Source: Levilactobacillus lanxiensis (GTDB lineage Bacteria > Bacillota > Bacilli > Lactobacillales > Lactobacillaceae). Taken from it: a stretch of DNA of 64,000 nucleotides. The stretch's first letter is position 1, and every line of letters starts with the position of its first letter. The notes under the pieces were generated by a model. That model was not told the origin of the DNA. It did no database searches and worked only from the letters and a program-made list of their open reading frames with translations. A program made the position numbers and the translations under genes. Of this stretch, positions 1,491-58,335 are shown piece after piece. Location: NCBI RefSeq assembly GCF_016861655.1, contig NZ_BOLN01000001.1:1-64000 (forward strand), written 5' to 3'.

Positions 1491-1680
1491 GCGCCTACCG
1501 GGTGGTGAAAATGAGATTGGAACGCGGCGGGCAGGACGTCCAGAGCCAAAGTACGGTCTCTGAACTCGATTTGAGCCTCAAAATTCGAATCTCAAAGTCG
1601 CCATTTGCTAGGCTCTGCCCAGCAAATCCCACGGCTGAACTCATTTTCACCACCCTCCCGGCTAACATTGATTTAGCCCA
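1491..1680 (+). repeat. Structured repeat SR1 (subfamily a)
   Basis: The outer stem at 1500-1515 pairs perfectly (16 bp) with 1640-1655. Inside are hairpin B (stem CAGAG/CTCTG in the minus sense), hairpin A (TTTGAG/CTCAAA) and the variable hairpin C (ATTTGCT/AGCAAAT), followed by the conserved CCCACGGCTGA. It fills the gap between the MFS promoter and the LysR 3' end and is antisense to LysR. The rest of gap 1367-1823 shows no gene. Confidence 0.85.
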
Positions 1681-1823
1681 AGTATCCGATTGCCACCGTT
1701 TCTCTAGCCATTCTTATGACGTATTTCAAAGTGCAGTTGTCACCAATTCTATTGGTAGTCGGCGTACGAGACAAAGTCGTGTCCATTCACTTATCATTCA
1801 GAAAAAAATTAGCTTTTTCTAAG

Positions 1824-2714
1824 TTATCTAGCCGTTCCATTCCCCAGTGCCCTAGCCCAGCGTTGGTAATTTGCTGCGAAGACGCTGTCGCGGGCGTAGA
1901 CCACGTCCAAGTCGTGTAACAGGTGGCCGGCCGGTAAAGGCAGAACCTTCAGCTGACCACTGGCCAACTCATCGGCTACGACCGAGCGGTAGACGAAGCT
2001 GATGCCCGCACCCCGTAACAACAATTGCCGGATGGCCGCTGGATTATTGACGGTGATCAACTGGCTGAACTCAGCTAACGTGACATTGGCCGCCTGAGCC
2101 AGACTGACCAGGATTTCCCGGCTGCCGGACCCCTCTTCCCGGACCAACAAGGGATATGCCGTGAGGTCGTGCCAGCTCACGGCCGACTGGTGGGCGACCG
2201 GTTGATCTGCGGCGATGACGCCAACGAAGGGTTCCTCCCGAACAATTTGATAGTCGTAACGGGTCTTGTCAAAGTTTCCTTCAATTAAGGCAAAATCGCT
2301 GGTCCCCTCGTCAATGGCCGTCAACGCCGCCTGGGTATTAGTCACCTGACAGGTCACTTGCCGGTAATCTGCCTGGTCTTGTAGCAACCGAATCAATTGC
2401 GGCGCGAGAAATTCACTCAGCGAAAGGGTCGTGCTAAAGGTGAGTTGCCGTTGGGCCTGCGGATGCTGGAGGCTGGCAACGACCTTTCCCGCCTGTACCT
2501 GCACCCGCTGCACAAAGGCGGCCAGCTCCTGCCCCGCCGGTGTGATGGTCAAATGCGGCCGCTCGTAGTGCACCAACTCAACGTTTAGTTCTGTCTCCAA
2601 ACTCTTGATCTGTTGTGACACGGCCGGCTGCGTAATAAACAACTGCCGCGCCGTTTGCGTATACGATTTGGTCTGCACCAGGACCAGCAATGTTTGATAG
2701 CGATTATCTAACAT
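1824..2714 (-). CDS. LysR-family transcriptional regulator
   Basis: At 296 residues this has standard LTTR length. The N-terminal winged helix-turn-helix spans about residues 4-62, with the recognition segment around TARQLFITQPAVSQQIKSLE. The rest is a periplasmic-binding-like effector domain. The ATG is preceded by GGAGGTG. It is divergent from a YeiH-family gene, the classic partner of CysL/YeiE-type LysR proteins, so it probably activates or represses that gene in response to a sulfur- or nitrogen-related metabolite. The effector is inferred from context only. The A+T-rich region upstream (2740-2800) contains CGTTAT and ATAACG in inverted orientation, which may be part of the binding site. 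Confidence 0.88.
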   Translation of the reverse strand: MLDNRYQTLLVLVQTKSYTQTARQLFITQPAVSQQIKSLETELNVELVHYERPHLTITPAGQELAAFVQRVQVQAGKVVASLQHPQAQRQLTFSTTLSLSEFLAPQLIRLLQDQADYRQVTCQVTNTQAALTAIDEGTSDFALIEGNFDKTRYDYQIVREEPFVGVIAADQPVAHQSAVSWHDLTAYPLLVREEGSGSREILVSLAQAANVTLAEFSQLITVNNPAAIRQLLLRGAGISFVYRSVVADELASGQLKVLPLPAGHLLHDLDVVYARDSVFAANYQRWARALGNGTAR

Positions 2715-2884
2715 TGGGACACCTCCAAGTTGTCTTTATTATAAGCTGAATTTATAGCGTTATTAAATATCCCAATTTTATCTTATAACGAGTTTCCAGT
2801 AAACTATTACTTGCTTAATAAGAACGACAATCCAGCTGAAACCAGCAATAGGATTGCATGAACGATAGCTAAATAATTGGCAAC

Positions 2885-3075
2885 CGTGAGTGACCAGAGG
2901 CGGATCAAGGTGACCAGCTGTGTCGATGGCCTTAGCTGAGTGATTTTTCTCAGCTTAGACCATGGGGCGACCTTGGAGACTGGTGGCTTTCCAGGCTCCA
3001 AGGCGAGCTGGAGGACCGCCTCTTAGGCCGTAAGCGTCCCCCACAGCAGGGCACCTTGAATCCGCCGTCGGGAAC
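2885..3075 (-). repeat. Structured repeat SR2 (subfamily b)
   Basis: The outer stem at 2899-2912 pairs with 3052-3066 with one bulged base. The interior contains a subfamily-b hairpin (TTAGCTGAG/CTCAGCTTA) and hairpin A as CTTGGAG/CTCCAAG. The element occupies the intergenic space directly before the yeiH-like ribosome binding site, so it probably lies in that gene's 5' leader or promoter region. A 64-codon open frame inside it is not a gene. Confidence 0.85.
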
Positions 3076-3111
3076 GCACACTTGCAAAACATATTTGAGG
3101 AGGAGTTTCAT

Positions 3112-4143
3112 TTGGATATTCGAGCAACTATGGCAACGCGCAGCTTCTGGGGTGCCGCTGGCCTAACACTAATCTGCGCCGTCGCCGGCAGTGAGCTGGC
3201 CCAACTGCATTACCTGAACTTAGTCGGTGCCCTAGTCATCGCCCTACTGCTGGGCATGGCGCTCCAACTGGCACCACGCGCGGTGAATGCCAATCGCGCC
3301 GGCATTGGGTTCATCAGTAATAAATTTCTGCGTTTAGGGATTATTCTCTTAGGGTTCAAATTGAACCTGATTCAACTCGCCCAAGCTGGCGTCAAGACGA
3401 TTACCCTGGCCGCCGTCGTGGTTACCGGGATGGTGCTTCTGACCTACAACCTCAGCCGTAAGCTCGGCGTCGACCGGGAGTTGGCGATTCTCACCGCTAC
3501 CGGGACCAGCATCTGTGGGGCCGCCGCAGTGATGGGCGTGTCACCGCAGATCAAGGTGAGCCCGGACAAGGCCGAACGGCAACGTGAAAACGAAGTTCTG
3601 GCCGTGGCCATCGTTGCCATTTTAGGAACGGTCTTTACGCTGATTGAAATCGGGTTGAAGCCCCTGCTCCACCTGACTGCCGTTCAATTTGGCGTCATGA
3701 CGGGAGGCTCTCTGCACGAAATCGCCCACGCCGTTGCGGCTGGGAGCGCGGGCGGTCCGGTCAGTCTGGATACGGCCATCATTACCAAATTATCGCGAGT
3801 TCTGTTGCTGGCACCGGCTGCCCTCATCATTGGCTGGTGGTACCAGAAGCAAACGGCCGGCACCACGACCAATGACGGCCCAACCAAGCTGCCGATTCCT
3901 TGGTTCATGGCTGGCTTCCTGTTGACCAGCGTCATCGGTACCTGGATTCCATTGGGTGCCGCTACATTAGCTGCCTTGGTCAAATTGGCCTACATCTTCT
4001 TGGGCATGGCGATGGCTGCCCTCGGCATGAGCGTCAACTTCCGCGTTATTTTCCAGCGCGGGGGTAACGCCTTTCTCGCAGCCACGCTGTCGTCCGTCGT
4101 CCTCTTAACCGGTGTGACGATTGCCAGCAAATTATTCTTCTAG
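3112..4143 (+). CDS. YeiH/UPF0324 family membrane protein (putative sulfate exporter)
   Basis: This hydrophobic protein of about 343 residues has around ten predicted membrane segments. It carries the family hallmark GTSICGAAAVMG in the middle of the chain and a C-terminal GMAMAALGMSVNF-like segment. UPF0324/YeiH proteins are annotated as putative sulfate exporters, but the substrate is not firmly established. The chosen start is TTG at 3112, six bases after GAGGAGGAG (3097-3105); an open frame also extends upstream to 3082 but would include the ribosome binding site. The LysR gene upstream is divergent and is the likely regulator. A terminator follows at 4171-4206. Confidence 0.85.
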   Translation: MDIRATMATRSFWGAAGLTLICAVAGSELAQLHYLNLVGALVIALLLGMALQLAPRAVNANRAGIGFISNKFLRLGIILLGFKLNLIQLAQAGVKTITLAAVVVTGMVLLTYNLSRKLGVDRELAILTATGTSICGAAAVMGVSPQIKVSPDKAERQRENEVLAVAIVAILGTVFTLIEIGLKPLLHLTAVQFGVMTGGSLHEIAHAVAAGSAGGPVSLDTAIITKLSRVLLLAPAALIIGWWYQKQTAGTTTNDGPTKLPIPWFMAGFLLTSVIGTWIPLGAATLAALVKLAYIFLGMAMAALGMSVNFRVIFQRGGNAFLAATLSSVVLLTGVTIASKLFF

Positions 4144-4170
4144 TCACTCTTTCAACCGACAACACAATTA

Positions 4171-4206
4171 AAGCGACGCCCACTAAATTGCGGGTGTCGC
4201 TTTTTT
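4171..4206 (+). terminator. Rho-independent terminator of yeiH-like gene
   Basis: AAGCGACGCCCAC pairs with the GGGTGTCGCTT side and is followed by TTTTTT (4201-4206). It lies between two convergent genes. Confidence 0.85.
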
Positions 4207-4225
4207 CATGAAGGCTGTTCCGCTA

Positions 4226-4828: not shown

Positions 4829-4842
4829 GAACCCCTCCCCTT

Positions 4843-4881
4843 ACATATGTTATCTATGACATATGTTATCACGTTCATATG
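4843..4881. promoter_or_regulatory. Operator repeats between cadD and arsR-type gene
   Basis: ACATATGTTATC occurs at 4843-4854 and again at 4859-4870, with a partial copy (TCATATG) at 4875-4881. Each core ACATATGT is itself palindromic. The 16-bp spacing between boxes and the position between divergent starts suit an ArsR/SmtB dimer operator controlling both genes. Confidence 0.6.
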
Positions 4882-5318: not shown

Positions 5319-5443
5319 CCTTGAAACGTGCTACACGAGCCAGACTCCTGCGCTTAGCAAAAGAAAGAGCTCCTGATCGACGTTGTCGACCAGAAGCCCT
5401 TTCTTCGCTAATGCTCAGAGTCTAAGCGGCTCGCTCCGCACTC
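5319..5443 (-). repeat. Long-hairpin repeat LH1
   Basis: This element of about 124 bp folds on itself almost end to end. GTGCTACACGAGCC (5328-5341) pairs with the arm at 5428-5441, and the inner arms (AGACTCCTGCGCTTAGC... and ...GCTAATGCTCAGAGTCT) continue to a GTCGAC-containing tip. On the minus strand it begins two bases after the TAG stop of the multicopper oxidase. A second copy (LH2) lies at 26544-26663. It may act as that gene's terminator or as a small mobile or palindromic element. Confidence 0.85.
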
Positions 5444-5444
5444 T

Positions 5445-7309: not shown

Positions 7310-7528
7310 AACAACTGGAACAAGCAGCTGAACGGTAATGGTAGCCGGAGGTGAGTAGCTATGGAATCCCGTGTCGATGGTGTTAGGTCGGTTTCTTCGA
7401 CCTTACAGCATGGGACGTCCGCAAGACTCACGTTTTTGGTGAGGCTTGCGGGCGAGGCTGAAGACCGCTTTTCGGCTTCAGTCGTGCCCCACGGGCTGGA
7501 ATAGCTACTCACCGCAGGCGGCAACCAC
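7310..7528 (-). repeat. Structured repeat SR3 (subfamily b-like)
   Basis: The outer stem at 7350-7362 pairs perfectly (13 bp) with 7501-7513. Hairpin A here is CCGCAAG/CTTGCGG and the b-type hairpin is TTAGGTCG/CGACCTTA. Both differ completely in sequence from other copies yet remain paired. It begins directly after the stop codon of the ATPase in the same sense. A second copy of its far end (7228-7268, matching 7313-7353 at an 85-bp offset) lies beside it, a partial duplication. Confidence 0.85.
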
Positions 7529-9322
7529 TTACCGGTCAGTCCGGGCGCGGAGGGCGTAGAGGATGGTGACCGTATCCACCACTTCCTGGAACACCGCCCC
7601 AATGATGGCTGGAATGACCCCGAAACTAGCAATCAGCATCAGGACCGTACAGATGATAATCCCAATCATCACGGCTTGTTTCGCGACTCGCATGGTATCG
7701 TGGGCAATTGCCCGGGCCATGCTGACCCGCGTCAAGTCATCCTTCAGGACAACGGCATCGGCAGATTCACTGGCCGCAGTGGCTCCGTGCGCCCCCATGG
7801 CAATGCCAACATCGGCGGTCGCCAGGGATGGCGCGTCGTTGATACCGTCACCGACCATGGCAACCGGCCGGTGTTCCGCAGGTAGGTCCGCCAGCACCTG
7901 AATCTTATCCGCTGGCAAACACTCGGCGTGAATTTGGTCGATACCGACCTCACCCGCAATCTGTTTGGCAATCGGTTCGCGGTCCCCGGAAATCATGAGA
8001 AGGTTGCCGACGCCCAGGTGATGCAGGTCGTTCATGGTCTGGGCCGCTTCCGGCCGGACCTGGTCACTGAAGCTCACGTACCCTTGATAGACTCCGGCAG
8101 CGGACACATAAACCGCCGTCTGATCTGGCTTCTTGATAGGCTCATCGCTCACAAAGGACGCCTTCCCGGCCCGGACAACTTGGCCGTTGATGGTGGCGAC
8201 AACTCCCTGTGCCGTGGTTTCCTTCACATCTGTCGCGACCAAGAGCGGTTCGGTATTCGCGGCCACTAAGGATTGCGCCAGCACGTGACCCGAATGTTGT
8301 TCCGCACTCGCTGCCAGTTGCAGGAGTGTTTCAGTTGGAACGGCCGTCACCGGCACGACCTTATCGACCACCAATTTTCCTTGGGTGATGGTCCCGGTCT
8401 TATCAAACGCAAACGTTTTGACCTGCGCCAATTTTTCTAGCGTGGTCCCCGTCTTGACGATGATTCCGTTTCGGCTGGCCCGGCTCATCCCTGAAATCAG
8501 GGCAATCGGCGCCGCCAGAATCAGGGGACACGGTGAAGCCACAACTAACACTTCCGCCAACCGAACTGGGTCGCCGGACAGGTACCAGGCAATCCCCGCA
8601 ATCACGTAAGCCAGCAAGGTAAACGGCACGGCATAACGGTCGGCCATCCGTACGAACTTGGCTGGTTGTGACTCGGCTTGCTTAACCAACCGCACAATGT
8701 TTTGGTACTGACTGTTATCGGCGGTCTGGTCGGCAATCAGATAGACCGAGGCCTCCCCGTTAACACTCCCGGACATGACGGTGTCACCGGCCTGTTTATC
8801 AATGGGGCGGGCTTCACCAGTCAGTGAGGATTCGTTGACCGTGGTTGGACCCGTCTCTAGCGTCCCATCGACGGGCATGACTTCGCCGGGCTTGACCAAC
8901 AACCGGTCACCCACGACGACCGTCTGGATGGCAACGTCCGTAATCGTGTCGCCATCCGCCTTGTGCGCCGACTGGGGCGAATTGTTAAGGAGTTCCTGCA
9001 ACTCACTGTTGGCTCGCCGCGCGGCAAAGTCTTCCAGCGCGTCACCCCCGGTCAGCATCAGGAGGACGATCAAGGCCGCCCAGTATTCGCCAACCGCCAA
9101 CGTGGCAACAACCGCCGTAATCGCGAGCAGGTCCACCCCAAATTTTCCTGACCGCAACGTCTTAACCATTTCAACGAACATCATTAAAGCCAGCAAAATA
9201 CCCAATCCGGTAATCAGAATTTGTGCATAACCCGCCTGGTGATTCACAAATTGGAGCCATAACGCAATGACCCCTAGAATGATAACGAACCAGAATTGTT
9301 TGTACTGACGTAGTTGTTGCAT
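7529..9322 (-). CDS. Heavy-metal P1B-type ATPase, no N-terminal metal-binding domain
   Basis: With the start at 9322 (ATG after GGGGAGGGG) the protein has 597 residues. An upstream GTG/TTG extension to 9385 lacks a binding site. Visible P-type features are the TGE actuator motif (about 168-170), membrane SPC motif (263-265, followed by PLIL), phosphorylation motif DKTGT (307-311) and hinge GDGINDAP. There is no HMA/CxxC domain at the N-terminus. The last helix reads QEVVDTVTILYAL rather than the HEGGT of typical P1B-4 pumps, so the metal class (Zn/Cd/Co or other) cannot be assigned. It pumps metal across the cytoplasmic membrane. The nearby cadD and multicopper oxidase fit a metal-tolerance neighbourhood. 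Confidence 0.88.
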   Translation of the reverse strand: MQQLRQYKQFWFVIILGVIALWLQFVNHQAGYAQILITGLGILLALMMFVEMVKTLRSGKFGVDLLAITAVVATLAVGEYWAALIVLLMLTGGDALEDFAARRANSELQELLNNSPQSAHKADGDTITDVAIQTVVVGDRLLVKPGEVMPVDGTLETGPTTVNESSLTGEARPIDKQAGDTVMSGSVNGEASVYLIADQTADNSQYQNIVRLVKQAESQPAKFVRMADRYAVPFTLLAYVIAGIAWYLSGDPVRLAEVLVVASPCPLILAAPIALISGMSRASRNGIIVKTGTTLEKLAQVKTFAFDKTGTITQGKLVVDKVVPVTAVPTETLLQLAASAEQHSGHVLAQSLVAANTEPLLVATDVKETTAQGVVATINGQVVRAGKASFVSDEPIKKPDQTAVYVSAAGVYQGYVSFSDQVRPEAAQTMNDLHHLGVGNLLMISGDREPIAKQIAGEVGIDQIHAECLPADKIQVLADLPAEHRPVAMVGDGINDAPSLATADVGIAMGAHGATAASESADAVVLKDDLTRVSMARAIAHDTMRVAKQAVMIGIIICTVLMLIASFGVIPAIIGAVFQEVVDTVTILYALRARTDR

Positions 9323-9444
9323 AAAATCCCCTCCCCATTGATTTGTTTGTAACTTGAGTATAGCAGAGCTTGTGACTTTTGCCACACTTGATGAGTCAGT
9401 ATTTTAGCCGCTGAACTAACTGAACGGTCAACCGTTGACCGCAA

Positions 9445-14760: not shown

Positions 14761-14935
14761 CGCCTTGCCGGGCGGCCAAAATGAGACCGGTCCGCTGAGG
14801 GAAGGACGCCGGAAGCCTGAGATACGGTCTTCCAGCTTGCTTTGAACCGAAGCCCACGTTTCAAAGTCACCATTCTCTGAAAATCACAGAGAATCCCACA
14901 GCTAGGCTCATTTTGTCCGCCCTATCGGCTGATGT
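14761..14935 (+). repeat. Structured repeat SR4 (subfamily a)
   Basis: It starts CGCCTTGCCGGGCGG. The outer stem GGGCGG.CAAAATGAG pairs with CTCATTTTG.CCGCCC. Hairpin B is GGAAG/CTTCC and variable hairpin C is ATTCTCTG/CAGAGAAT. It lies upstream of the ABC operon. Confidence 0.8.
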
Positions 14936-15007
14936 TGCACAATCCAATAAAAATACCAAATTCCAAGAGCAACCATTCTGGTTTACACTATCCCCACTGC
15001 CAACTAA

Positions 15008-15230: not shown

Positions 15231-15505
15231 AACCAGACTTAGTCGCAGGGTTGGGAAAACTGGGCCGGTCGTGGGAGTGACCAGAGGCGCGCCAAGGTGC
15301 CCGGCTGTGTCGATGATCTTAGCTGAGCGATTTCCTCAGCTTAGAGCATGGGACAACCTTTGAGACCGCTTTTCGGCTCAAAGTTGAGGTGGAAGCCCGC
15401 TTCACAGGCTGGAACCGGCCCCACAGCAGGGCGCCTTGAGCTCGCCGCCGGGAACGGACGCGACTAGGCCCAGTTTTCACCAGCCCGGAGGCGAATACAA
15501 AGACA
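15231..15505 (-). repeat. Structured repeat SR5, nested a/b mosaic
   Basis: The ends are subfamily a: GAAAACTGGGCC (15255-15266) pairs with GGCCCAGTTTTC (15467-15478), and the flanks match SR7 (CCCGGAGGCGAATACAAAGACA-like). In place of the subfamily-a interior there is a complete subfamily-b element (about 15275-15460) with its own outer stem and hairpins. It ends about 110 nt before the aldo/keto reductase start. Confidence 0.85.
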
Positions 15506-17106: not shown

Positions 17107-17154
17107 CTCTAGTATTCCTGCTTTCTACGGGTTACACTGGTTGTGTTAGTACCG

Positions 17155-17345
17155 TTTCTGACGGCGGGTTCAAGGTTAGCGGCTATGGGGCCCGGCTCCA
17201 GCCTGAAAAGCGGTCTCCCGACTCGACTTGAAGCCGACAAAATCATCGTCTCCAAGGTCGACCCATGCTCTAACCTGAGAAAAAACCTCAGGCAAGACCA
17301 TCGACACAGCTGCCAACCTTGCCCTGCCTCTGGTCACTAATACTG
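17155..17345 (+). repeat. Structured repeat SR6 (subfamily b)
   Basis: The outer stem GGTTCAAGGTT pairs with AACCTTGCCCTGCC (imperfect). The b-type hairpin around CCTGAGAAAAAACCTCAGG and hairpin A (CTTGGAGAC/...CTTCAAG on the minus strand) are present. It comes after the terminator of the upstream gene. Together with SR7 it fills the 700-bp gap 17038-17738; the stretch 17346-17495 shows nothing. Confidence 0.8.
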
Positions 17346-17499: not shown

Positions 17500-17690
17500 T
17501 ACCGTTAGCCGCAGGACTGGTGAAAATGGGCTCAGCCGTGGGAGTTGCCTTGGCGGGTTCCCGCTTAGGCAACTGCTATCTTTGAGACGTGGTTTTCGGC
17601 TCAAAGTAAGCCTGAAGACCGCCCTTTGGCTTCAGACGTGCGCCCACAGCGTCACGGCCCATTTTCACCAGCCCGGAGGCAAATACAAAG
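17500..17690 (-). repeat. Structured repeat SR7 (subfamily a)
   Basis: CTGGTGAAAATGGGC (17517-17531) pairs perfectly with GCCCATTTTCACCAG (ending 17671). Variable hairpin C is AGTTGCC/GGCAACT, hairpin A CTTTGAG/CTCAAAG and hairpin B CTGAAG/CTTCAG. It ends about 50 nt upstream of the TetR gene. Confidence 0.85.
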
Positions 17691-18389: not shown

Positions 18390-18504
18390 TCGTTGGGTCT
18401 TCCAGTTTTTTATGGGTTTCTGCTGCGGGCAGGAACCTTTTTTCGTTTACATATTATTAAATATATAATAGCCCAAACGGCCATAAATTTGTCAGTCAGT
18501 GTCA

Positions 18505-18690
18505 GTGACCAGAAGTGGGCCAAGGTTCCCCGCTGTGTCGATGGTCTTAGCTGAGTGGTTTGTTCTCAGCTTAGACCATGGGTCGACCTTTGAGACCGAT
18601 TCTCGGCTCAAAGTCGAGGTGGAGGACCGCCTCTCAGGCCGGAACCGCCCCCATAGCGGGGAACCTTGAGCCCACCGTCGGGAACGGAAA
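18505..18690 (-). repeat. Structured repeat SR8 (subfamily b)
   Basis: The outer stem GTGGG.CCAAGGTTCCCC pairs with GGGGAACCTTG.CCCAC. The b-type hairpin is TTAGCTGAG/CTCAGCTTA and hairpin A CTTTGAG/CTCAAAG. It starts about 16 nt after the stop codon of the WxL protein in the same sense, like SR3, SR9, SR11 and SR13. Confidence 0.85.
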
Positions 18691-18705: not shown

Positions 18706-20871
18706 TTAAGGCGCGTCTTGGAGCCGCCACTCCAGCACCCCTTGGTATTTGCCCGCGAGCGTATCACTATTCACGAGCATATGTGGCCCTTGATCCGCCT
18801 GCCAACTCCCACTCACGCTGGTCTGTTCCGAGTCACTCGCTGTCGTCTTTTCCGCAACCAGCACCGCGGCCTGGCTCTGATCACCCACCGGCTGTTCTTC
18901 ATGACCTCGCATGAAAATCACATGGCCCCGTAATAGCTGGCCAGAAGCAGTCCGGAACGGTGTCTGCTGTTGCACGAATAATTTCCACCGCCGCTGCGGT
19001 CCCCGCTCATCCAACACGGTTAGCCGCCAGCCCGACTTGCGTTGAATGTGTTGTGCTGTTCCAGTCAAGGTCGTGGTTGCGAAGTCTGCTTCAGGGGATA
19101 CCTCCGTAAAGCCTAATGTTCCGGGGCCCCGCGTCAAAGTGACCTGAATTTCATTGGAATGGACCTGCGCATCCGCCTTGTCTTCTGCCTGCAGAGTCAG
19201 CTGATTGTCTCCTGACTTGAGGAGCGCCGATTTCACAGTTAGTTGCGTCGTACCGACTGGTTGTCCCGCGACTAATTGACCGGCTAAATCAGTCATGGAA
19301 ACGGTCTGGCCATTCAGCTTAGCTCGTAATCGATACCCCGCCAACTCGTCCACCGCAAAGGGCTCGCCGTTGTTGGTCAGCTGAACCCGTACCTTCGCAT
19401 CCTCATGATGGCCGAGCTGTTGCGTGGCATCGCCTAAATTGGCCAACTTCAGTTGCACGCCCGCCTGAATCCGATAGCTGGGTAACGGCAACTGCGTTTG
19501 GTAATTGGGGCCGTAAAAGCGCGCTGTCACAGCCGGAACAGTCGTTTCATGACTCACCGCCGGGACTGTTCCAGTCGCTGAAACGGTCACCCGGTTGCGG
19601 CTTTTATCCAGTGTTTCCTTCCAGGACTTTCTAACCTCAGGTTGATTTAATTCAGCCAGACTAAACGGTTCGCTAATGGGATTCTGATCATAACTGACCC
19701 CACCTACCGTCCAGGTCAATGGTTGCGGCAATGGTAGATTCATCGTCAACGGCTGAATATCCTGATTGCTGGTCGCGGCATCATAATCAAATTGATACTG
19801 ATAGCGCACCTGATCACCCACGGCCACCCGTCCGCCAGCCGGGACCGGCTGTTTGGTCGTCAAATTGTAGAGCGTGGCGTGCGGGGTGATTTTTCCTAGA
19901 CTGTCGGAACTATCAACCATTGCCAGGGCATTTTCACTATTATCAGGATTAGTCGACCCGGTGATGCCCCAATAAACATTGCCGTTATCTGCCGTCGCAC
20001 CTAGTTTACTAGGCTCTACGCTCACCGTATCCTGAACGACATCTAGTCCACCCCGTGCCATTCCGGTCACCGGATCACGATCATTGTAGTGGTAGGTCAT
20101 TTGTTTTTTATCCGCTTGCCAGTCTAAGGTCAAATGATGCCACTGACCATCCGCAAAGTTCGTCACCATCTTAGGCTGTTTGTGATTCATACTAAAGTAG
20201 GATTGCCTGTCACTTCCTAATTTGCGATAAGTGGCTACTTCCCCCGGATAGCCACTGGCGATGTGCATGCCAGAATTGACGGACGCATCGAGATCAAATG
20301 AATCACTCTTTCCAACCGTAGTAGTACGATTAACGTGGGTATCAAATTCCAACGCCCAGCTTTGTTTAATCGCAGTTTTCGTAACCAAATCAACACCCAG
20401 CCCGTTGCGGTCATTCCCCCACACGCCTAAAGACTCACCGGCCCCCGCAACCGCCCGGCCTTCTCTCTCCGAGTTTTGCAACACAAAGGCCATGCCTGAC
20501 CCAGGCATATTCAGCTTAGCAACTTCATCACCCTTATTGCCGAAATACAGCCACAACGCGATATGCTCATTCACATTCATATTAAACTGATTATTCGTCC
20601 GGGCTAGCCCCGTCTTAGACCAAATAGCTCCTGCCTGGACAAACTTCGAATCAGGATTGTCACGGGTAATCTGGGCAACTGAAGATGGCACTAAAGGTGA
20701 ATCAATCAACTTCGTAAAATTGTCTTCTCCCGCCATCGAAAATAAATTATCCAACGGAACTCCCTGTGGCGCCGTTGCCAACGCGTGGTCTAAGTCCGCA
20801 TTGGCCTGACCACTTATCATCGGAAATAGTAGGCTTAACCCCACTACCATCCCCATCAACCACCGTTTCAT
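18706..20871 (-). CDS. Secreted L-type lectin-like protein with C-terminal WxL domain
   Basis: The 721-residue protein has a signal peptide (1-25, ending QANA). Residues 40-330 form an L-type lectin-like jelly roll (ALWLYFGNKGDEVAKLNMPGSGMAFVLQNS region, ALEFDTHVN, WHHLTLDW). Beta-sandwich repeats follow. The C-terminal 180 residues form a WxL domain (WRLTVLDE, WKLFVQQQTPF, ending YQGVLEWRLQDAP), which attaches non-covalently to peptidoglycan. There is no LPXTG motif. It stands alone: the DUF916 and small WxL partners usual for such loci are not next to it. It probably binds glycans at the cell surface. The ATG follows GGGGAGGA. Confidence 0.85.
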   Translation of the reverse strand: MKRWLMGMVVGLSLLFPMISGQANADLDHALATAPQGVPLDNLFSMAGEDNFTKLIDSPLVPSSVAQITRDNPDSKFVQAGAIWSKTGLARTNNQFNMNVNEHIALWLYFGNKGDEVAKLNMPGSGMAFVLQNSEREGRAVAGAGESLGVWGNDRNGLGVDLVTKTAIKQSWALEFDTHVNRTTTVGKSDSFDLDASVNSGMHIASGYPGEVATYRKLGSDRQSYFSMNHKQPKMVTNFADGQWHHLTLDWQADKKQMTYHYNDRDPVTGMARGGLDVVQDTVSVEPSKLGATADNGNVYWGITGSTNPDNSENALAMVDSSDSLGKITPHATLYNLTTKQPVPAGGRVAVGDQVRYQYQFDYDAATSNQDIQPLTMNLPLPQPLTWTVGGVSYDQNPISEPFSLAELNQPEVRKSWKETLDKSRNRVTVSATGTVPAVSHETTVPAVTARFYGPNYQTQLPLPSYRIQAGVQLKLANLGDATQQLGHHEDAKVRVQLTNNGEPFAVDELAGYRLRAKLNGQTVSMTDLAGQLVAGQPVGTTQLTVKSALLKSGDNQLTLQAEDKADAQVHSNEIQVTLTRGPGTLGFTEVSPEADFATTTLTGTAQHIQRKSGWRLTVLDERGPQRRWKLFVQQQTPFRTASGQLLRGHVIFMRGHEEQPVGDQSQAAVLVAEKTTASDSEQTSVSGSWQADQGPHMLVNSDTLAGKYQGVLEWRLQDAP

Positions 20872-22524: not shown

Positions 22525-22887
22525 ATGCCCACAAAAACTTATCATATTGGTGTCGAAGCTACGATGGAGATCATCGGTGGCAAATGGAAATCCATTATTC
22601 TGTGCCACCTCCGCCATCAAACCATGCGCACCAGCGAACTTGCTCGCGCCATTCCACAGATTTCGCAAAAGATGTTGACGCAACAACTGCGCGAATTGGA
22701 AAATGCGGACATCGTTGCCCGCCACGTTTACAAGCAGGTGCCGCCCAAGGTTGAGTATTCATTGACCGACTACGGCGAATCGCTGTCGGGAATTCTTCAC
22801 GAGCTGTGCGTGTGGGGCGAGGACAATATCGACCGGCGCGAGGCTGCGGGCGAAGAGATCACCCTGCTCAGCCGCGACGACGTTTAG
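22525..22887 (+). CDS. HxlR-family winged-helix regulator
   Basis: The 120-residue protein has the HxlR pattern: TMEIIGGKWKSIILCHL at 14-30, then SELARAIPQISQKMLTQQLRELE and the wing PPKVEYSLTDYGESL. Two cysteines (about residues 28 and 97) leave redox or electrophile sensing open, as known for HypR/YodB-type HxlR proteins. The ATG follows AGGAGG. It is divergent from the MFS gene, the probable target. Repeat SR9 begins 17 nt after the stop and a strong bidirectional terminator follows. Confidence 0.87.
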   Translation: MPTKTYHIGVEATMEIIGGKWKSIILCHLRHQTMRTSELARAIPQISQKMLTQQLRELENADIVARHVYKQVPPKVEYSLTDYGESLSGILHELCVWGEDNIDRREAAGEEITLLSRDDV

Positions 22888-22904
22888 GGCTAACCGGATT
22901 TTTC

Positions 22905-23096
22905 CGCCTTACCGGGCGGCACAAATGGACCGGGACGCTGTGGGCGGACGCCCGAAGCCTTAGAGCGGTCTTCAGGCTTACTTTGAGCCGTAGATCACGT
23001 CTCAAAGATACTAGTTCTCTAAGCGGTGAACCGCTAAGAGAACTCCCACGGCTGAGTCCATTTGTGCCGCCCTCACGGCTTACATCCACTTAGCCC
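22905..23096 (+). repeat. Structured repeat SR9 (subfamily a, best-preserved copy)
   Basis: GGGCGGCACAAATGGA (22914-22929) pairs perfectly with TCCATTTGTGCCGCCC (23057-23072). Inside are hairpin B, hairpin A (CTTTGAG/CTCAAAG) and a long variable hairpin C (GTTCTCTAAGCGG/CCGCTAAGAGAAC), then CCCACGGCTGA. It sits right after the hxlR-type gene in the same sense. Confidence 0.88.
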
Positions 23097-23187
23097 TGAA
23101 CGTCCCACGGCTGTATGGCCGATTACTTTTTCAATATAATCGTTTCAACATTCAGCTCATAGGATTCAAATCAACCGCAACAAAAAA

Positions 23188-24563: not shown

Positions 24564-24648
24564 CGCCTTACCGGTCGGCAAAAATGATTCGGAACGCTGG
24601 GGCGGACGCCAATGTTTCCGATCTCACGGCTCATGTTGGTTTAAACCC
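24564..24648 (+). repeat. Structured repeat SR10 (subfamily a, interior deleted)
   Basis: The left end CGCCTTACCGGTCGGCAAAAATG and the GCTGGGGCGGACGCC block are intact. The sequence then jumps to the right-hand end (CTCACGGCT, GGTTTAAACCC), so hairpins B, A and C are missing. The gap 24389-24741 holds nothing else recognisable. Confidence 0.7.
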
Positions 24649-25778: not shown

Positions 25779-26543
25779 GTGGTTCAACAATTAGCAGGTA
25801 AAGTTGCAATCATCACGGGTGCCGGGTCCGGCATGGGGAAGTCCATGGCCGAATTATTTGCCAAGGAAGGCGCCAAAATTGTCGCCGCCGACATCAATGA
25901 AGACCGGTTAAACGAGGTTGTTAAGGCCATCACCGACGCGGGTAATGACGCCGTCGCCGCTGTCACCAACGTGACGAAGGAAGCCGATGTCGTCGCCATG
26001 GTCAAGACGGCTGTCGATAATTATGGGCATTTAGACATTCTGGTCAACAACGCCGGGATCATGGACAACATGGCCCCTGTTGGCACACTGACCAACGAGT
26101 TGTGGGACCGCGTTATGACGGTCAACACGACCAGCGTTATGTTGGCAACTCGGGAAGCGCTGAAGCTATTTACGAAGCAAAAATCCGGGGTCATTTTAAA
26201 CATCGCTTCCGTCGGTGGCATTGGTGGCGGCCGGGCCGGTGCGGCTTACACGGCTTCGAAACACGCTGTGGTCGGCTTGACCAAGAACACCGCCTACATG
26301 TACGAAAACGTTGGGATCAGAACCAACGCCATCGCCCCAGGTGGCATCAAGACCAACATTGCCGAATCCATGAAGGGGATTGACAAGGAAGGCATGCAAC
26401 GGCAAAGTGTCGGCATGCCACTTTCACCAGAACCCGGAACCGGCGACGAAATCGCCCAAACGGCGCTGTTCTTATGTTCAGACGCCGCAAGCTACGTCAA
26501 CGGGACGGTTGTGCCGGTTGATGGTGGGTGGACTAGTTACTAG
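25779..26543 (+). CDS. Short-chain dehydrogenase/reductase (classical SDR)
   Basis: About 254 residues from the GTG at 25779, eight bases after AAGGAG; the GTG at 25770 overlaps that site. The cofactor motif TGAGSGMG is near residues 13-20 and the acidic DIN near 38-40 suggests NAD(H) preference. NNAG is near 90. The catalytic Ser, Tyr and Lys are seen as NIAS and YTASK. The C-terminus VNGTVVPVDGGW is typical of FabG/acetoin- or alcohol-dehydrogenase-like SDRs. The substrate is unknown. The stop codon TAG abuts repeat LH2. Confidence 0.9.
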   Translation: MVQQLAGKVAIITGAGSGMGKSMAELFAKEGAKIVAADINEDRLNEVVKAITDAGNDAVAAVTNVTKEADVVAMVKTAVDNYGHLDILVNNAGIMDNMAPVGTLTNELWDRVMTVNTTSVMLATREALKLFTKQKSGVILNIASVGGIGGGRAGAAYTASKHAVVGLTKNTAYMYENVGIRTNAIAPGGIKTNIAESMKGIDKEGMQRQSVGMPLSPEPGTGDEIAQTALFLCSDAASYVNGTVVPVDGGWTSY

Positions 26544-26663
26544 AGTGCGGAACGAGCCGTTTAGACTCTGAGCATTAGCGAAGAAAGGGCTTCTGGTCGA
26601 CAACGTCGGCCGGAAGTCCTTTCTTTTGCTAAGCGCAGGAGTCTGGCTCGTGTAGCACGTTTC
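26544..26663 (+). repeat. Long-hairpin repeat LH2
   Basis: This is the second copy of LH1, read in the sense of the SDR gene, and begins at the base after its TAG stop. GTGCGGAACGAGCC pairs with GGCTCGTGTAGCAC, the inner arms AGACTCTGAGCATTAGC and GCTAAGCGCAGGAGTCT continue the stem, and the tip is GGTCGAC-AAC-GTCGGCC. The whole is a stem of roughly 55 bp with few mismatches. Confidence 0.85.
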
Positions 26664-26840
26664 AGAGGAAGCATATTTCCGGATATCAAGGCGAGAGAAA
26701 ATCTAACGCCCCAAACCAATATCAACAACCGCACCTCCAAGAAAAAGTCCTTCCACCCCACTCACCCACCAAATTGACGTATCCCACCGTAACCGGTAAA
26801 CTAATCAACATGATTAGTCGGTAAGGAGACGATTGGGTAA

Positions 26841-27749: not shown

Positions 27750-27945
27750 TAAACCAGTGTAAGCCGTGAGGGCGTCCCAAATGGCTTCAGCCGTGGGAGT
27801 TCTCTTAGTGACGGTTTAGGCCACTTAGAGAACTGGCGTCTTTGAGACGTGACTTTCGGCTCAAAGCGAGTCTGAAGACCGCTTTTGGGCTTCAGGCGTC
27901 CGCCCACCGCGTTCCGAGCCATTTGGGACGCCCGGTAAGGCGCAA
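27750..27945 (-). repeat. Structured repeat SR11 (subfamily a)
   Basis: GGGCGTCCCAAATGGCT (27770-27786) pairs perfectly (17 bp) with AGCCATTTGGGACGCCC (27917-27933). Hairpin C is AGTTCTCTTAGTG/..ACTTAGAGAACT, hairpin A CTTTGAG/CTCAAAG and hairpin B CTGAAG/CTTCAG. It begins about 10 nt after the stop of the LPXTG gene in the same sense. Confidence 0.88.
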
Positions 27946-27954: not shown

Positions 27955-30114
27955 TTAGTACCGGCGCTTGCGGTCGACGGCGATGCCGGTGGCTAATAAC
28001 GTGCCCGCCAGTGCAAACCCAACAGCACTCAACCAGCTATCGTTAGCTTCGCCAGTTTGTGGTAAGCCATCAGACAAGCCCAAGGCCTGTAAGATATTGC
28101 CCCGAACGGATTCCAATTGGGCAACTAATGTGGTGTCACCCTTGGCCCGAGCAGCGGCGATGGCAGCATCCACCTTGTTCAACAAGGTTTCTTCAGCGGC
28201 CGTGTTACGCTCAGCCTCAAAATCAATCAAGTCGTCTTCAAAGTCTTGCGCCATGTCTTCCGTGTATTCTGGGTGTTCATGCTCGTAGGTTAAGTTCTCG
28301 TCCCCACCGTTAGGTTCGCCTTCAGGCTCCTCGGTGTCAGGATTTTCTGTGTTCGGTTCCTCAGTATTCGGGTTCTCAGTGTTAGGACCTTCAGTCCCAG
28401 GCGTTTCGGTGTCTGGACCTTCTGTGTCAGGACCTTCCGTACCAGGAATTTCTGGCATTTCAACATCGATACCAGGGTGTACAGGGATTTCGAGGTCTTC
28501 TTCACCATCGCCGTCCCCGTCGCCTTCGTTGTCCTTGTTATCTTGCAAGTCCCAACGGTGGGTTTCGGCGTTAACGATGACCTTGTCCGCGATGATGTTC
28601 CCATCAATGTTGGAGCTGGCAACGACCGTAGCGGATGGCGCTAAGATACTGCCTTGGAAGGCCTTCTTAAAGTCCAACGTCCCGGTGTATTGCTTATCGC
28701 TGGCGCCGCTGTTGTAGAAGTTCCACAGCAGATGGTTGTCCCCAAAGTCTTCCGTTTCGTGATTGTCCCGGTCGGACCCGTCACTGTACTTGATCTTAAT
28801 TTGAGAGTTGACGTCATAATCCGCCGCACCACCGGTATCCACGTTGATGATGACAGTGGTCCCATCAGCGTCTGGTGATAAGCCGGAGATGGTCAGTGGC
28901 GTATTGCTGTTGAGCACGTCCGGTGTCAAATTGATGACGATTTGGCCGTTAGCGTTTGGCGTCATGTCACTGATATCAATGACCCGGTTGTTCTGGTCGT
29001 CAAAGTCGCTGTTGGAATAGCTGGCTTCACTCTTTTGATTGGCCAGGGCTTCGTTCAAGGCCTTCAGCTTGGCAAATTCGGCGTCAAAGTCGATGTACGT
29101 TTGACCGTTTTGGTCTTGGTAAACTTCCTGCGCCAATAAGTGGTCAATGTATTGGCCGTTGACCATCGGCCGGTTCGGGTTGCTGATATCAATTTCAATG
29201 CCTTTACCGAAGATGACCTTGTTTTCCCGAGTTGAGCCCCCGGAAACGAAGGAGCTGTTGGCAATGTTGGTAATGTTCTGTATGTAAGAAATATCCTTGT
29301 CGAGCAGTTCTTCAATGATGTTAGTCCCGAAGTTCACGTTCCCAGTCAAGTTTTGGACGGCCACGTTCCCGTTAGTGTGGGCGTTCAATTCGGCTTCACG
29401 GGCGAAAATGTGAAAGACGGAGGAGACCCCAAGAATGTTGTTCAGATCAGGGAAGTCATCGTAAACACTGCCACCGGCTTGAATCCCAGAATCCGCGTAA
29501 GGTTCAAACGCACTGGTCTTCGTGGCGGTTCCGGCAAGCTTTTGGAGCATGTTGGTAATCGTTTGCTTAGCGGCTTGCGGCTTTTCAGAACTAGCTAAAC
29601 TGGCAACCACGGCCTTGGCACTAGCCGGACTGGTGTGGGCGTAAGTGACCGTCTCAGTCGTTGTGGCCTTTTTAACCGTCTTCCTGATTGACTTCTTAAC
29701 TAACTTGTTTGCCTTGAGGCCTGGCTTCAACGTGCCCTTTTTCAAGGTCGTCCCTGGCCGAACGCTGGTCGTCTTCACCGTCTTGGCTGAAGATGAACTG
29801 GTCGATTGACTGTTAACTGAACTATCTTGTGCGTCAGAACTGCTTTGTTCTGAGGACATTGAAGATGCGCTCGTTGACGTTGATTGGCTACTAGATTTGC
29901 TTTCATTTTGTGAGGTTGCCCCAGTTGATTCTGCCTGACTCTCAGAACCTGCAGCGGCCTTAACTTCAGTCGTATCGCTGGCGCTCGATGTGTTCGTGTC
30001 GGCATTGGCAGTTACCGTGGCCCCCGCGCCTAACGTGACTAACATCACAGCGCAAGCGAAGACCCAGCGACGGCCACTCTTATACATTTTGAAGTGTGTC
30101 CGTTTCGTTTCCAT
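27955..30114 (-). CDS. LPXTG surface protein with choice-of-anchor-A-type adhesin domain
   Basis: The 719-residue protein has a KxYKxGKxW-type signal (FKMYKSGRRWVFACAVML, about 8-40). A Ser/Thr/Gln-rich stalk runs to about 130. A large domain at about 195-540 matches the choice-of-anchor-A adhesin pattern (SVYDDFPDLNNILGVSSVFHIFAR, NVAVQNL, GSILAPSATVVASSNIDGNIIADKV). A repeat of short EGPDTE/ENPNTE units follows at about 560-610, then a helical segment and LPQTGE with a C-terminal helix and KRRY. It is probably a wall-anchored adhesin. The ATG follows AAAGGTAGGG. SR11 follows its 3' end. Confidence 0.82.
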   Translation of the reverse strand: METKRTHFKMYKSGRRWVFACAVMLVTLGAGATVTANADTNTSSASDTTEVKAAAGSESQAESTGATSQNESKSSSQSTSTSASSMSSEQSSSDAQDSSVNSQSTSSSSAKTVKTTSVRPGTTLKKGTLKPGLKANKLVKKSIRKTVKKATTTETVTYAHTSPASAKAVVASLASSEKPQAAKQTITNMLQKLAGTATKTSAFEPYADSGIQAGGSVYDDFPDLNNILGVSSVFHIFAREAELNAHTNGNVAVQNLTGNVNFGTNIIEELLDKDISYIQNITNIANSSFVSGGSTRENKVIFGKGIEIDISNPNRPMVNGQYIDHLLAQEVYQDQNGQTYIDFDAEFAKLKALNEALANQKSEASYSNSDFDDQNNRVIDISDMTPNANGQIVINLTPDVLNSNTPLTISGLSPDADGTTVIINVDTGGAADYDVNSQIKIKYSDGSDRDNHETEDFGDNHLLWNFYNSGASDKQYTGTLDFKKAFQGSILAPSATVVASSNIDGNIIADKVIVNAETHRWDLQDNKDNEGDGDGDGEEDLEIPVHPGIDVEMPEIPGTEGPDTEGPDTETPGTEGPNTENPNTEEPNTENPDTEEPEGEPNGGDENLTYEHEHPEYTEDMAQDFEDDLIDFEAERNTAAEETLLNKVDAAIAAARAKGDTTLVAQLESVRGNILQALGLSDGLPQTGEANDSWLSAVGFALAGTLLATGIAVDRKRRY

Positions 30115-50850: not shown

Positions 50851-50927
50851 GCGCAATCGGACTATCGATGAGTAAAGTTCGACCACCACACAAGCTGTGG
50901 CAGTGCTTTTCTGGTCTAGCCGTTGTC

Positions 50928-51120
50928 AGCGACCAGAGGCAACTTCGCGGACGCAGCTGTGTCGATGGCGTTGGCTGGGGTCTTTCCCAGCCGACACCAT
51001 GGGACGACCTTGGAAACTCGCGGTTCTGGCGAGGTTTCAAGGCGAGCCGGAGGACCGCTCCCCAGGCCGCAGGCGTTTCCCACAGCAGTGGGAGCGAAGA
51101 TTGCCGCCGGGAGCGAAAAT
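50928..51120 (-). repeat. Structured repeat SR12 (subfamily b)
   Basis: GGCAACTTCGC (50938-50948) pairs with GCGAAGATTGCC (51094-51105) with one bulge. The b-type hairpin is TTGGCTGGG/CCCAGCCGA and hairpin A CTTGGAAAC/GTTTCAAG. Both carry base changes on both sides compared with SR2 and SR8. It lies between two convergent genes, beyond the spx-like terminator. Confidence 0.85.
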
Positions 51121-54985: not shown

Positions 54986-54995
54986 CATTTATACC

Positions 54996-55481: not shown

Positions 55482-55544
55482 TTCAACATTCTCCTCGTAT
55501 TATCAAAAAATATATCATCCACACAAAAACTGCACAGTTGTTGT

Positions 55545-56042: not shown

Positions 56043-56080
56043 ATTATTACTCCTTTAGTCAATTTATTAAGCCCTACGTG

Positions 56081-56596: not shown

Positions 56597-56610
56597 TTCT
56601 TTCACCTCTC

Positions 56611-57162
56611 CTACTTCAGACTACCAATGCCAAACTCATCGTAAAAATGCTTGGCCGGATTGGCATATTGCGCCAATTCTGACGGATATGCATCCCCCAC
56701 TGTCGGCCGTCGTTTATTGGTATAGGTCATCTCTCTATGATCCAAAACAATCTGTTTTGAATACCTAGAGGTCATCCGCTTGTACTGGGACTTCACGTAG
56801 GAATAACTGTTGTGGCGTGCCGTAATCGTGCGGTAACCCTTTTTATTATTCTTGGCCGAAATCGTGAATGTCTTTTGGTCCCTGACCTTTTTCCCTAGTC
56901 GATAAGTCTTGCCACCGTTCCAGTTAGGCGTCCATTTTCCTTTAATAAAGAACCCCTTGGAAATACTGTAGGTCTTGGCTGTCAGCTTGACCCGCATGAT
57001 TCCCGACTGGCTGTTCAACTCGTACCAGGTTCCCCACAAGGACTTCGGCACAGAATTGCCCAGCTTGGTCGCTGCGTTAGCCGTTGTCCCAGCTAATCCC
57101 ACGCTAGCCAGTGTCACCAACGCCAGACCAGCGCGCAACAACTGCTTATGTAATCTTGTCAT
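56611..57162 (-). CDS. Small secreted lipocalin-like protein 3
   Basis: About 183 residues from the ATG at 57162, seven bases after GGAGG. The signal peptide (MTRLHKQLLRAGLALVTLASVG) is nearly identical to that of the 165-residue gene upstream, showing duplication. The mature part starts SVPKSLWGTWYELNSQSG and contains YRLGKKVRDQKTFTISAKNNKKGYRTI. Probably first gene of an operon with the next two or three. Function unknown. Confidence 0.75.
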   Translation of the reverse strand: MTRLHKQLLRAGLALVTLASVGLAGTTANAATKLGNSVPKSLWGTWYELNSQSGIMRVKLTAKTYSISKGFFIKGKWTPNWNGGKTYRLGKKVRDQKTFTISAKNNKKGYRTITARHNSYSYVKSQYKRMTSRYSKQIVLDHREMTYTNKRRPTVGDAYPSELAQYANPAKHFYDEFGIGSLK

Positions 57163-57199
57163 TTTCAATCCTCCATGATGCATCTACACTCAGCGGACA

Positions 57200-57330
57200 C
57201 ATCTTTATTCGGTGTTTACGTCACATTCTGTCATTGAAGCGCTTCACAAACACCGTGTAAAGCCTAGCAAACTAAAACGGTCGATAATACTATTCCTGAC
57301 CTGGAATAATGCATGTAACTCTACATTTCG
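57200..57330 (-). promoter_or_regulatory. Upstream module B, copy 1
   Basis: CACAAACACCG, TAGCAAAC, ACGGTCGATAATACTATTCC and TGACC occur in the same order as in 57930-58030, in front of a paralogous gene. TGAAGCGCTTCA (about 57236) is a perfect palindrome found only in this copy. Confidence 0.5.
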
Positions 57331-57376
57331 TACCTCAAACAAAAAAACGCCCGCAACTATCTCAAGTTAACTTGTC

Positions 57377-57874
57377 CTAATCCATATACGTGTTGACGAT
57401 TTTCTTAGTCACCGGGAAGAACATGTCCGTTCGCTTAGAGTTGTCAGAAAATTTGGTGATCATTTTTAACTTGGTTTTGTTGTGAACTTTAACGCGTTTA
57501 ACCTTCATTACATATTTATTATACTGATCCAAGGTCGTCAGCGTCCGGTAACCATTCCTGTCCGCCTTTTTGCTCAACGTAAAGGTCTTATTCTTTTTTA
57601 ACTTCTTGCCTAGTTTCAGCGTATGCTTCTCGCTATTCACACGCCATTTACCATGTTGATACACCCCAAGAGTGTTGGTATAAGTCTTGGCTGTAATCTT
57701 AACTCTATTCGCACCGCCATCGCCTTTTCCCCAAGCAAACCAGGTATTTCTCAAGGACTGAGGCACTGTCCGTGTTGCGGCATTAGCCGTCGCTCCAGGG
57801 ATTGCGGCCCCAACCGTTGCTACCGTCATCAAGGCCAGACCAGCATGCAGTAATTGCTTATGTAATCTTGTCAT
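57377..57874 (-). CDS. Small secreted lipocalin-like protein 4
   Basis: 165 residues. The signal peptide MTRLHKQLLHAGLALMTVAT is a close copy of the one in the next gene. The mature part starts TVPQSLRNTWFAWGKG and contains LKLGKKLKKNKTFTLSKKADRNGYRTL. ATG follows GGAGGA. A long gap with its own upstream module separates it from the next gene, so it is probably transcribed separately. Function unknown. Confidence 0.75.
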   Translation of the reverse strand: MTRLHKQLLHAGLALMTVATVGAAIPGATANAATRTVPQSLRNTWFAWGKGDGGANRVKITAKTYTNTLGVYQHGKWRVNSEKHTLKLGKKLKKNKTFTLSKKADRNGYRTLTTLDQYNKYVMKVKRVKVHNKTKLKMITKFSDNSKRTDMFFPVTKKIVNTYMD

Positions 57875-57929
57875 CTATGATATCCTCCACGATGTGCCAG
57901 CCGAATCACTGAACACATTTTATTAGGCG

Positions 57930-58030
57930 CAAGAGAAATTTCCCAAAGATTCGGACAATTCACAAGCACCGCAACAATCGTAGCAAAACCCCACGGCCGA
58001 TAACACTATTTCCGACCAGTAGAGTTGCTT
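57930..58030 (-). promoter_or_regulatory. Upstream module B, copy 2
   Basis: CACAAGCACCG, TAGCAAAA, ACGGCCGATAACACTATTTCC and GACC mirror copy 1, so the duplication of the two genes included their promoters. Confidence 0.5.
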
Positions 58031-58054
58031 GCATCTCTGCATGCTGTTATTGCA

Positions 58055-58093
58055 CAAAAAAGGCCCAACCCGCAAATACACAGGTTGGACCTC
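58055..58093 (-). terminator. Rho-independent terminator (minus strand)
   Basis: GGTCCAACC pairs with GGTTGGGCC and is followed by TTTTTT on the minus strand. It ends the beta-helix gene transcript after it passes SR13. Confidence 0.8.
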
Positions 58094-58134
58094 GTAAAAC
58101 TATTTACAAAATCATCACACGAACAAAGACATGG

Positions 58135-58335
58135 TTAAACCAGTCTCAGCCGAGAGGACGGCAAAAATGGGGTCAGCCGTGGGATTAAAAAAGCGACGGC
58201 ACCTGCCGTCGCTTCTTTAATGGCGTCTTTGAAACGCGTTACTCAGCGGTTCAAAGCGAGCACAGAGACCGCTCTTTGGCTCTGGGCGTCCTGCCCACAG
58301 CGTTCCGCCCCATTTTTGCCGTCCGGTAAGGCGAG
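58135..58335 (-). repeat. Structured repeat SR13 (subfamily a)
   Basis: GACGGCAAAAATGGGG (58157-58172) pairs perfectly with CCCCATTTTTGCCGTC (58308-58323). Hairpin C is unusually long and GC-rich (AAGCGACGGCA/TGCCGTCGCTT), hairpin B CAGAG/CTCTG and hairpin A TTTGAA/TTCAAA. It begins about 10 nt after the stop of the beta-helix gene in the same sense, before its terminator. Confidence 0.88.

Follow-up and report, generated by a model that had tools for sequence, protein, structure and literature searches.

A hairpin-rich intergenic repeat of Levilactobacillus with covarying, nearly wobble-free stems and inverted copies of host flanks

What keeps the stems of a repeat complementary while their sequence drifts? 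The question is raised by a 64,000-nucleotide stretch of Levilactobacillus lanxiensis DNA (GCF_016861655.1, contig NZ_BOLN01000001.1, positions 1–64,000, forward strand), referred to here as the window. A first-pass annotation described in it a thirteen-copy family of structured repeats of common layout, lying only between genes, and took paired changes on both arms as selection on structure. Covariation is generally held to be the best evidence of functional RNA.

The repeat family and its two core types

The family itself is borne out, as 12 near-full copies of a ~200-bp hairpin-rich repeat (profile E 5e-30 to 3e-45) and one fragment rather than 13 full copies. The nhmmer profile was trained on the 12 window copies, which therefore match by construction. 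All 12 are also recovered by the core covariance model R1, whose 28 training rows include five from window copies. The copies and the flanks of copy A are as follows.

1491..1670, + strand: SR1, core type I (nhmmer; R1 62.9 bits)
2882..3079, − strand: X1, core type II (nhmmer; R1 123.1 bits)
7334..7523, − strand: SR3 (also copy F), type II-like core, 5 nt 3' of ATPase ORF 7529–9385 (nhmmer; R1)
14761..14937, + strand: G, core type I (nhmmer; R1)
15269..15459, − strand: X2, type II core within type I-like outer arms (nhmmer; R1)
17150..17345, + strand: X4, core type II (nhmmer; R1)
17500..17682, − strand: E, core type I (nhmmer; R1)
18497..18689, − strand: X3, core type II, 16 nt 3' of ORF 18706–20871 (nhmmer; R1)
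22869..22904, + strand: host flank F of copy A, the coding end of the HxlR-like gene including its stop codon (alignment)
22905..23086, + strand: A, core type I, 17 nt 3' of ORF 22525–22887, an HxlR-like regulator (nhmmer; R1)
23087..23113, − strand: F', the HxlR-like gene end repeated in inverted and diverged form, across copy A from F (alignment)
24564..24630, + strand: fragment, 5' end only (nhmmer E 9.6e-5)
27755..27942, − strand: C, core type I, 12 nt 3' of ORF 27955–30114 (nhmmer; R1)
50921..51118, − strand: X5, core type II, with palindromic flanking sequence outside the element (nhmmer; R1; flank test)
58141..58333, − strand: D, core type I, 11 nt 3' of ORF 58345–60198 (nhmmer; R1)

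In SR1, A, C, D, E, and G the layout follows the earlier description. X1–X5 and SR3 have a second core type (II) ending in ...CATCGACACAGC or a close variant. Exact CCCACGGCTGA is present in only five window copies. The build is composite, with outer modules around hairpin modules, and nesting is seen; terminal inverted repeats, short length, and high copy number are those of a MITE. The 5' end of the element adjoins genes, often directly 3' of stop codons. Nearly all copies are indeed intergenic: a crude ORF call finds overlaps of more than 20 nt with ORFs of at least 200 aa in 4 of 112 full copies.

The window-trained profile gives 160 matches in 464 kb including the window, 126 of which cover more than 150 of the 192 positions. 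The density is 146 matches/Mb in 130 unselected kb and 188/Mb in the window, corresponding very roughly to 440–570 copies per 3.03-Mb genome. R1 finds the repeat in 34 of the 35 Levilactobacillus genomes searched (all except G021), with few matches in G031 and G016; copy numbers from this search are estimates, since the best 97 candidates per genome were scored and 18 of the 35 genomes reach 97. Weak relatives occur elsewhere in Lactobacillales. The earlier failure to match a named RNA family was confirmed in Rfam, with no match at the gathering threshold and five matches at E ≤ 10, none overlapping a copy. Among the papers listed on repeats in lactobacilli, drawn mostly from open-access journals, none describes this family in its title or abstract opening.

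Covariation and the wobble test

Covariation was measured on 28 copies chosen for diversity, with the structure taken from the same alignment and tree-blind shuffles as the null. Paired cells make up 94.5% of the total, compared with 80.2% in shuffled and 30–51% in slid alignments, and 104 cells are doubly changed, compared with 36.9 after shuffling. Four of five measures are reached by none of 500 shuffles; the fifth, further pair types, shows no rise (24 observed, 23.8 shuffled).

A functional structured RNA, either a 3' UTR element or an sRNA with its fold under selection, would account for this covariation, for the frequent site just 3' of stop codons, and for the 21 core columns that are invariant in the 28 copies. 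The A-rich apical loops, as in RNase P, also speak for it. However, the stems have almost none of the wobble pairs of an RNA. Type I stems contain 3935 Watson–Crick (WC), 62 GU, and 81 AC cells, and type II stems contain 3451, 23, and 51, a count that leaves out two nearly constant G-U column pairs as unpaired (GU = 160 with these included). RNase P RNA of the same genus, used as a control, has 2170 WC, 398 GU, and only 6 AC. With both types pooled (GU 85, AC 132 in ~7,700 cells), there is no G-U bias on either strand. In addition, orientation relative to the 5'-side gene is mixed, being the same in 60 of 105 copies and opposite in 45. The near-pure WC stems, unlike those of the control, indicate that pairing is apparently kept at the DNA level. 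RNA-fold selection is thus not supported as the cause of the covariation, and we regard a functional RNA family as improbable. The paired changes described in the window are strong, but with G-U as rare as A-C they do not support selection on an RNA structure.

Double changes were also counted between orthologous copies. In 20 same-type comparisons, which are not independent, 23 of 1207 WC pairs are doubly changed to another WC pair, where the unpaired rate of 112/1176 predicts ~3.6. Among single changes, 14 are GT, 20 AC, and 22 other. Ectopic exchange could account for many of the double changes.

IS200/IS605 ends, REP units, and integron attC sites move as folded single-stranded DNA. The repeat could likewise be an enzyme-recognised DNA-hairpin substrate, on which WC pairing is selected without any copying of arms. 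The WC-only stems and the 21 invariant core columns are consistent with such a substrate, as are two signs of strandedness. DNA-parameter folding favours the complement over the strand named here in all but 11 of 125 copies, although the copies are related. In the apical loops, one strand is rich in purines (A 32–39%, T 10–11%; RNase P, A 41%, T 25%). On the other side, the sixfold excess of double changes within ~7% divergence is not readily given by selection alone, and we consider the substrate a possible but rather unlikely explanation.

The loops and their mostly fixed orientation also speak against arm copying, as pure arm copying does not predict them. The hairpin C loop of type I reads GAA in six cases and TTC in two, and no type II loop occurs in both orientations. 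Inverted loops, looked for as a trace of template switching, are thus limited at most to GAA/TTC in type I.

Inverted host flanks and arm re-copying

The palindrome of some copies runs into host sequence. Locus-specific flank palindromes score above the 99th percentile of permuted flanks in 24 of 112 copies, where ~1 is expected and a direct-repeat control gives 6. At 25 nt further out, the count is 11 of 112 (control, 2), all of type II. For type I, none of 57 copies passes beyond 25 nt, and an anchored flank test gives 3 of 63. Mirrored coding ends belong to ORFs of 322, 180, 431, and 120 aa at L015, L008, L005, and window copy A, respectively. At the L015 4545 junction, three carriers give scores of 18.5, 13.0, and 20.5 for the inverted copy of the gene end, where shuffling reaches at most 11–12.5, and element-free L037 gives 7.0; L032, which has its own element there, has no inverted copy (score 6.5). 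At locus C, the inverted flank scores 18.0, versus 6.0–8.5 in four element-free relatives. An RNA family would not explain why some palindromic arms extend into unique host DNA, coding 3' ends among it, and selection on a DNA-hairpin substrate alone would not copy host gene ends either. The inverted flank at L015 4545 is decayed while the element arms are still matched, indicating that in-place correction alone is insufficient.

We favour, with some reservation, the reading that the copies are genus-wide, non-autonomous, mosaic, BOX/MITE-like mobile fold-back repeats, with arms rebuilt through snap-back (template-switch) synthesis. The 3' arm would fold back onto the 5' arm and prime DNA synthesis by intrastrand template switching at insertion or replication. 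One arm would be re-copied from the other, and synthesis may run into the host flank, giving flank, element, and inverted flank. Arm re-copying together with exchange between copies would keep the stems complementary as the sequence drifts. Template switching can yield WC double changes, according to PMC8794818. Weighing against this reading are the loop composition and orientation, the type I flank counts, the missing inverted copy in L032, and the two G-U column pairs left out of the type II count.

Relatives differ both in presence and in core. The G003 gap has no detectable element for 19 of 27 mapped matches. Of 41 typed comparisons between orthologs, 13 show different core types, at seven sites, counted per match (14 of 40 on merged matches), a further point against a functional RNA; in only 4 of the 13 (two sites) is there a single match on both sides, and the other 9 have a neighbouring match. 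The 150-kb comparison, which turned up no insertion younger than the g0/g12/g26 species split, also weighs against the favoured reading. For g0 123005, the strongest candidate, remnant palindromes in the relatives suggest loss there. For target-site duplications, the element-free G003 sites are strongly diverged and the element ends inexact.

3' transduction from donor loci was rejected. Among 123 copies, 17 have non-self matches for the 3' tail and 8 for the 5' head. Among the tail matches listed (25 of 35), nearly all lie in a few spots of L010, L018, and L007, which we read as unmasked type II element pieces.

No mobilising enzyme was found among the four families checked. The Y1 transposase (PF01797) is unmatched in 12 of 35 genomes, including copy-rich G012 and G030, which counts against a REP/RAYT or IS200/IS605 derivative and also against a DNA-hairpin substrate, with few other enzyme families covered. 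The presence of Y1, of reverse transcriptase (PF00078), or of IS110 transposase (PF02371; in 9 of 35 genomes, unmatched in G000) does not track the element, and the IS110 result speaks against an IS110 bridge-RNA element. For a TnpB omega-RNA element, TnpB (PF07282) is present in all 35 genomes, 28 above cut-off, and thus also in G021, which lacks an R1 match.

More tentatively, snap-back synthesis might itself be how this element moves in bacteria, with a folded strand, self-primed on its arm, extending into a host gene end and leaving flank, element, and inverted flank. If so, every move would rebuild perfect WC arms, permit exchange of core cassettes, and mimic functional-RNA covariation. 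With strong covariation and almost no wobble, the G-U versus A-C count tells RNA-level from DNA-level pairing. The family offers a natural system for testing template switching as builder and keeper of hairpins, with hundreds of copies, element-free sites in relatives, and cores that differ between close species at shared sites.

Comparison with known systems

Integron attC sites keep their structure while the sequence varies and fold at the DNA level. The repeat resembles them in both respects, but has a multi-hairpin core. Like MITEs, it is short, non-autonomous, and abundant, with inverted repeats at its ends and element-free sites in relatives. Unlike them, it has no parent IS among the four enzyme families checked, and some copies duplicate the flank inverted rather than direct.

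Template-switch or quasipalindrome hairpins (PMC8794818; PMC8604942) share multi-base WC double changes, arm homogenisation, and new reverse-complement copies. They differ in that the repeat is a multicopy family and that loop inversion (PMC8604942) is at most rare here.

In build, the repeat resembles BOX of Streptococcus pneumoniae and S. suis, described in PMC3049150 as composite and intergenic, with variable hairpin modules set between outer ones, mutual insertion, and more than 100 copies. Mobilisation of BOX by ISSpn2 is only proposed there, from end similarity. True membership of the streptococcal family would explain these likenesses, but the BOXA1R sequence is unmatched in Levilactobacillus copies, scoring no better than shuffled primers (maximum 11 versus 13; mean 8.2 versus 7.9; one BOX module end). 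The BOXA1R pattern was found in 0 of 7 in the genus of G164, which may not be Streptococcus. We consider membership very improbable. Compared with BOX as described there, the repeat is set apart by two site-exchanged core types and genus-wide spread in Levilactobacillus, and perhaps by its strict WC stems and inverted flank copies.

Abundance and distribution of the repeat

The first-pass annotation described a thirteen-copy family of structured repeats, and 12 copies and one fragment are recovered by a DNA profile built from the same 12, with strong folding and covariation. Six copies have a type I core and five (X1–X5) a type II core, with SR3 classed as type II-like. Nesting of type II cores within type I outer arms (the outer long-range stem) is frequent. 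An Rfam search, as the annotation suggested, found no named family that fits the copies. The same profile gives 160 matches, 126 near full length, in 464 kb of the genome including the window, of which 400 kb was picked as motif-rich. A wider profile gives 19 matches in 130 kb not picked for the motif and 12 in the window; these densities correspond to roughly 440–570 copies per 3.03 Mb. Among the 105 copies flanked on both sides by called genes (crude ORF calls), the median distance from the 5′ end is 28 nt to the stop codon of a co-directional gene (60 copies) or 119 nt to a start codon (45 copies), and the next gene on the 3′ side is a median of 343–419 nt away.

A covariance model of the element core (R1) finds matches in 34 of 35 genus genomes, with at least 97 in 18 of them. 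The poorest Levilactobacillus genomes (G021, none; G031, one; G016, three) provide, against the copy-rich ones, a natural contrast for tracing a mobilising factor. Across the order, 10 of 148 genomes have matches, our own included; the others are weak (best 46.8 bits, versus 128.6 for our own copies). By eye, a G164 locus has an outer stem and three hairpins, and a G136 locus an outer stem and two. Locus L125 of G164 carries, at 500–1750, tandem relatives, partly truncated, in which the outer stem differs; two of these overlap, on the opposite strand, sub-threshold matches to Rfam SSRC8_2 (Streptococcus sRNA).

The window also contains other repeats and repeat-rich genes:
5322–5444 (+) and 26542–26664 (−), a separate 123-nt repeat, 93% identical, with weak sub-threshold matches to ctRNA_p42d, a plasmid antisense RNA family (E 0.08 and 1.1), and a further three diverged copies within 594 kb of this genome
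27955–47557, a series of large ORFs with many direct-repeat families of 37–300 nt (e.g. D1–D6)
18706–20871, upstream of that series, a lectin-like/WxL-like protein (Pfam scores below cut-off)

Pairing and the wobble rule

Compared with shuffled versions, one copy (both strands) and a second (one strand) fold much more stably (z −7.5 to −9.5), and four of the five covariation measures lie above both the shuffled and the slid-partner controls. The paired changes on both arms noted in the annotation are thus borne out as covariation, but not as RNA-type selection, since G-U pairs are not commoner than A-C. A stem selected as RNA is expected to have many G-U pairs and few A-C mismatches, as in the RNase P RNA control (2170 Watson–Crick, 398 G-U, 6 A-C, 121 other; 30 genus loci, 28 distinct rows). 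Type I stems have 3935, 62, 81, and 53, respectively (80 rows), and type II stems 3451, 23, 51, and 66 (72 rows), where two nearly constant G-U column pairs (71/72 and 66/71) were dropped as probably not pairs and would bring the type II G-U total to 160. The rows take in copies from G012 and G026; of 160 copies, the 8 that were untyped are left out, as are columns filled in less than half of the rows. For variable pairs alone, G-U and A-C number 58 and 76 in type I, 20 and 45 in type II, and 73 and 5 in RNase P. Given these counts, the pairing of the element is maintained regardless of the G-U rule on either strand.

Changes at orthologous sites were followed in G000, G012, and G026 (~93% identical). 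In 20 same-type comparisons (≥80% identity), 1207 Watson–Crick pairs show 23 double changes to Watson–Crick, 6 to non-Watson–Crick, and 56 single changes, versus ~208 single and 3.6 double changes to Watson–Crick expected under independence; 112 of 1176 unpaired positions changed. Of 46 per-hit comparisons, 41 could be typed on both sides, and core type differs in 13, at 7 sites; only 4 of the 13, from two sites, involve a lone hit on each side, and the remaining sites are complicated by a neighbouring hit, often an outer arm around a nested core. No element was detected in the orthologous G003 gap for 19 of 27 mapped matches (fragments included), a comparison that could overlook more diverged copies. 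At g0 123005–123204 (G000 C3), one species has the element, and what remains in G012 and G026 is short palindromes, as would be left by deletion of the core between its arms.

Inverted host flanks and proposed re-copying of arms

In some copies the outer palindrome extends into unique sequence. Tested against permuted flanks, flank palindromes pass the 99% point in 12 of 57 type I copies and 12 of 55 type II copies, where a direct-repeat control gives 2 and 4; another 25 nt outwards, the numbers are 0/57 (control, 0) and 11/55 (control, 2). An anchored test gives 3/63 and 19/60, part of this signal coming from type I arms that covary around nested cores of type II. Among the host sequences mirrored in this way are coding 3′ ends at L015, L005, and L008, and that of the HxlR-like regulator gene 5′ of copy A (window 22905–23086, +). 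For the inverted gene end at the L015 4545 junction, three carriers give scores of 18.5, 13.0, and 20.5, exceeding all 200 shuffles, versus 7.0 in element-free L037 and 6.5 in L032, which has an element of its own at that place. The corresponding score at locus C is 18.0 in L015 versus 6.0–8.5 in four element-free relatives.

The flank, pairing, and site data fit a fold-back DNA element, the arms of which would be re-copied from each other by template switching, a process described in PMC8794818 and PMC8604942 as making and repairing hairpin stems. Snap-back priming off the 3′ arm would in addition carry copying into the 5′ flank, matching the inverted flanks. However, the inverted flanks examined are old and decayed, whereas the element arms remain matched, so arm copying would have to be supplemented by inter-copy exchange or selection on the element. 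The loops also fit arm copying poorly, being purine-rich on one strand and inverted rarely at most; RNase P loops are likewise A-rich. With DNA parameters, the complement is the better-folding strand in all except 11 of 125 copies, but the copies are related and this preference singles out no mechanism. With these misfits, a DNA-hairpin transposon substrate remains a serious rival to re-copied arms.

Comparison with known systems

The presence of Y1, RT, and IS110 enzyme families does not track the element among genus genomes, and TnpB is ubiquitous in them and uninformative. The sole BOX sequence compared with element copies does not match, but in lifestyle BOX repeats, as portrayed in PMC3049150, are the nearest match to the element.
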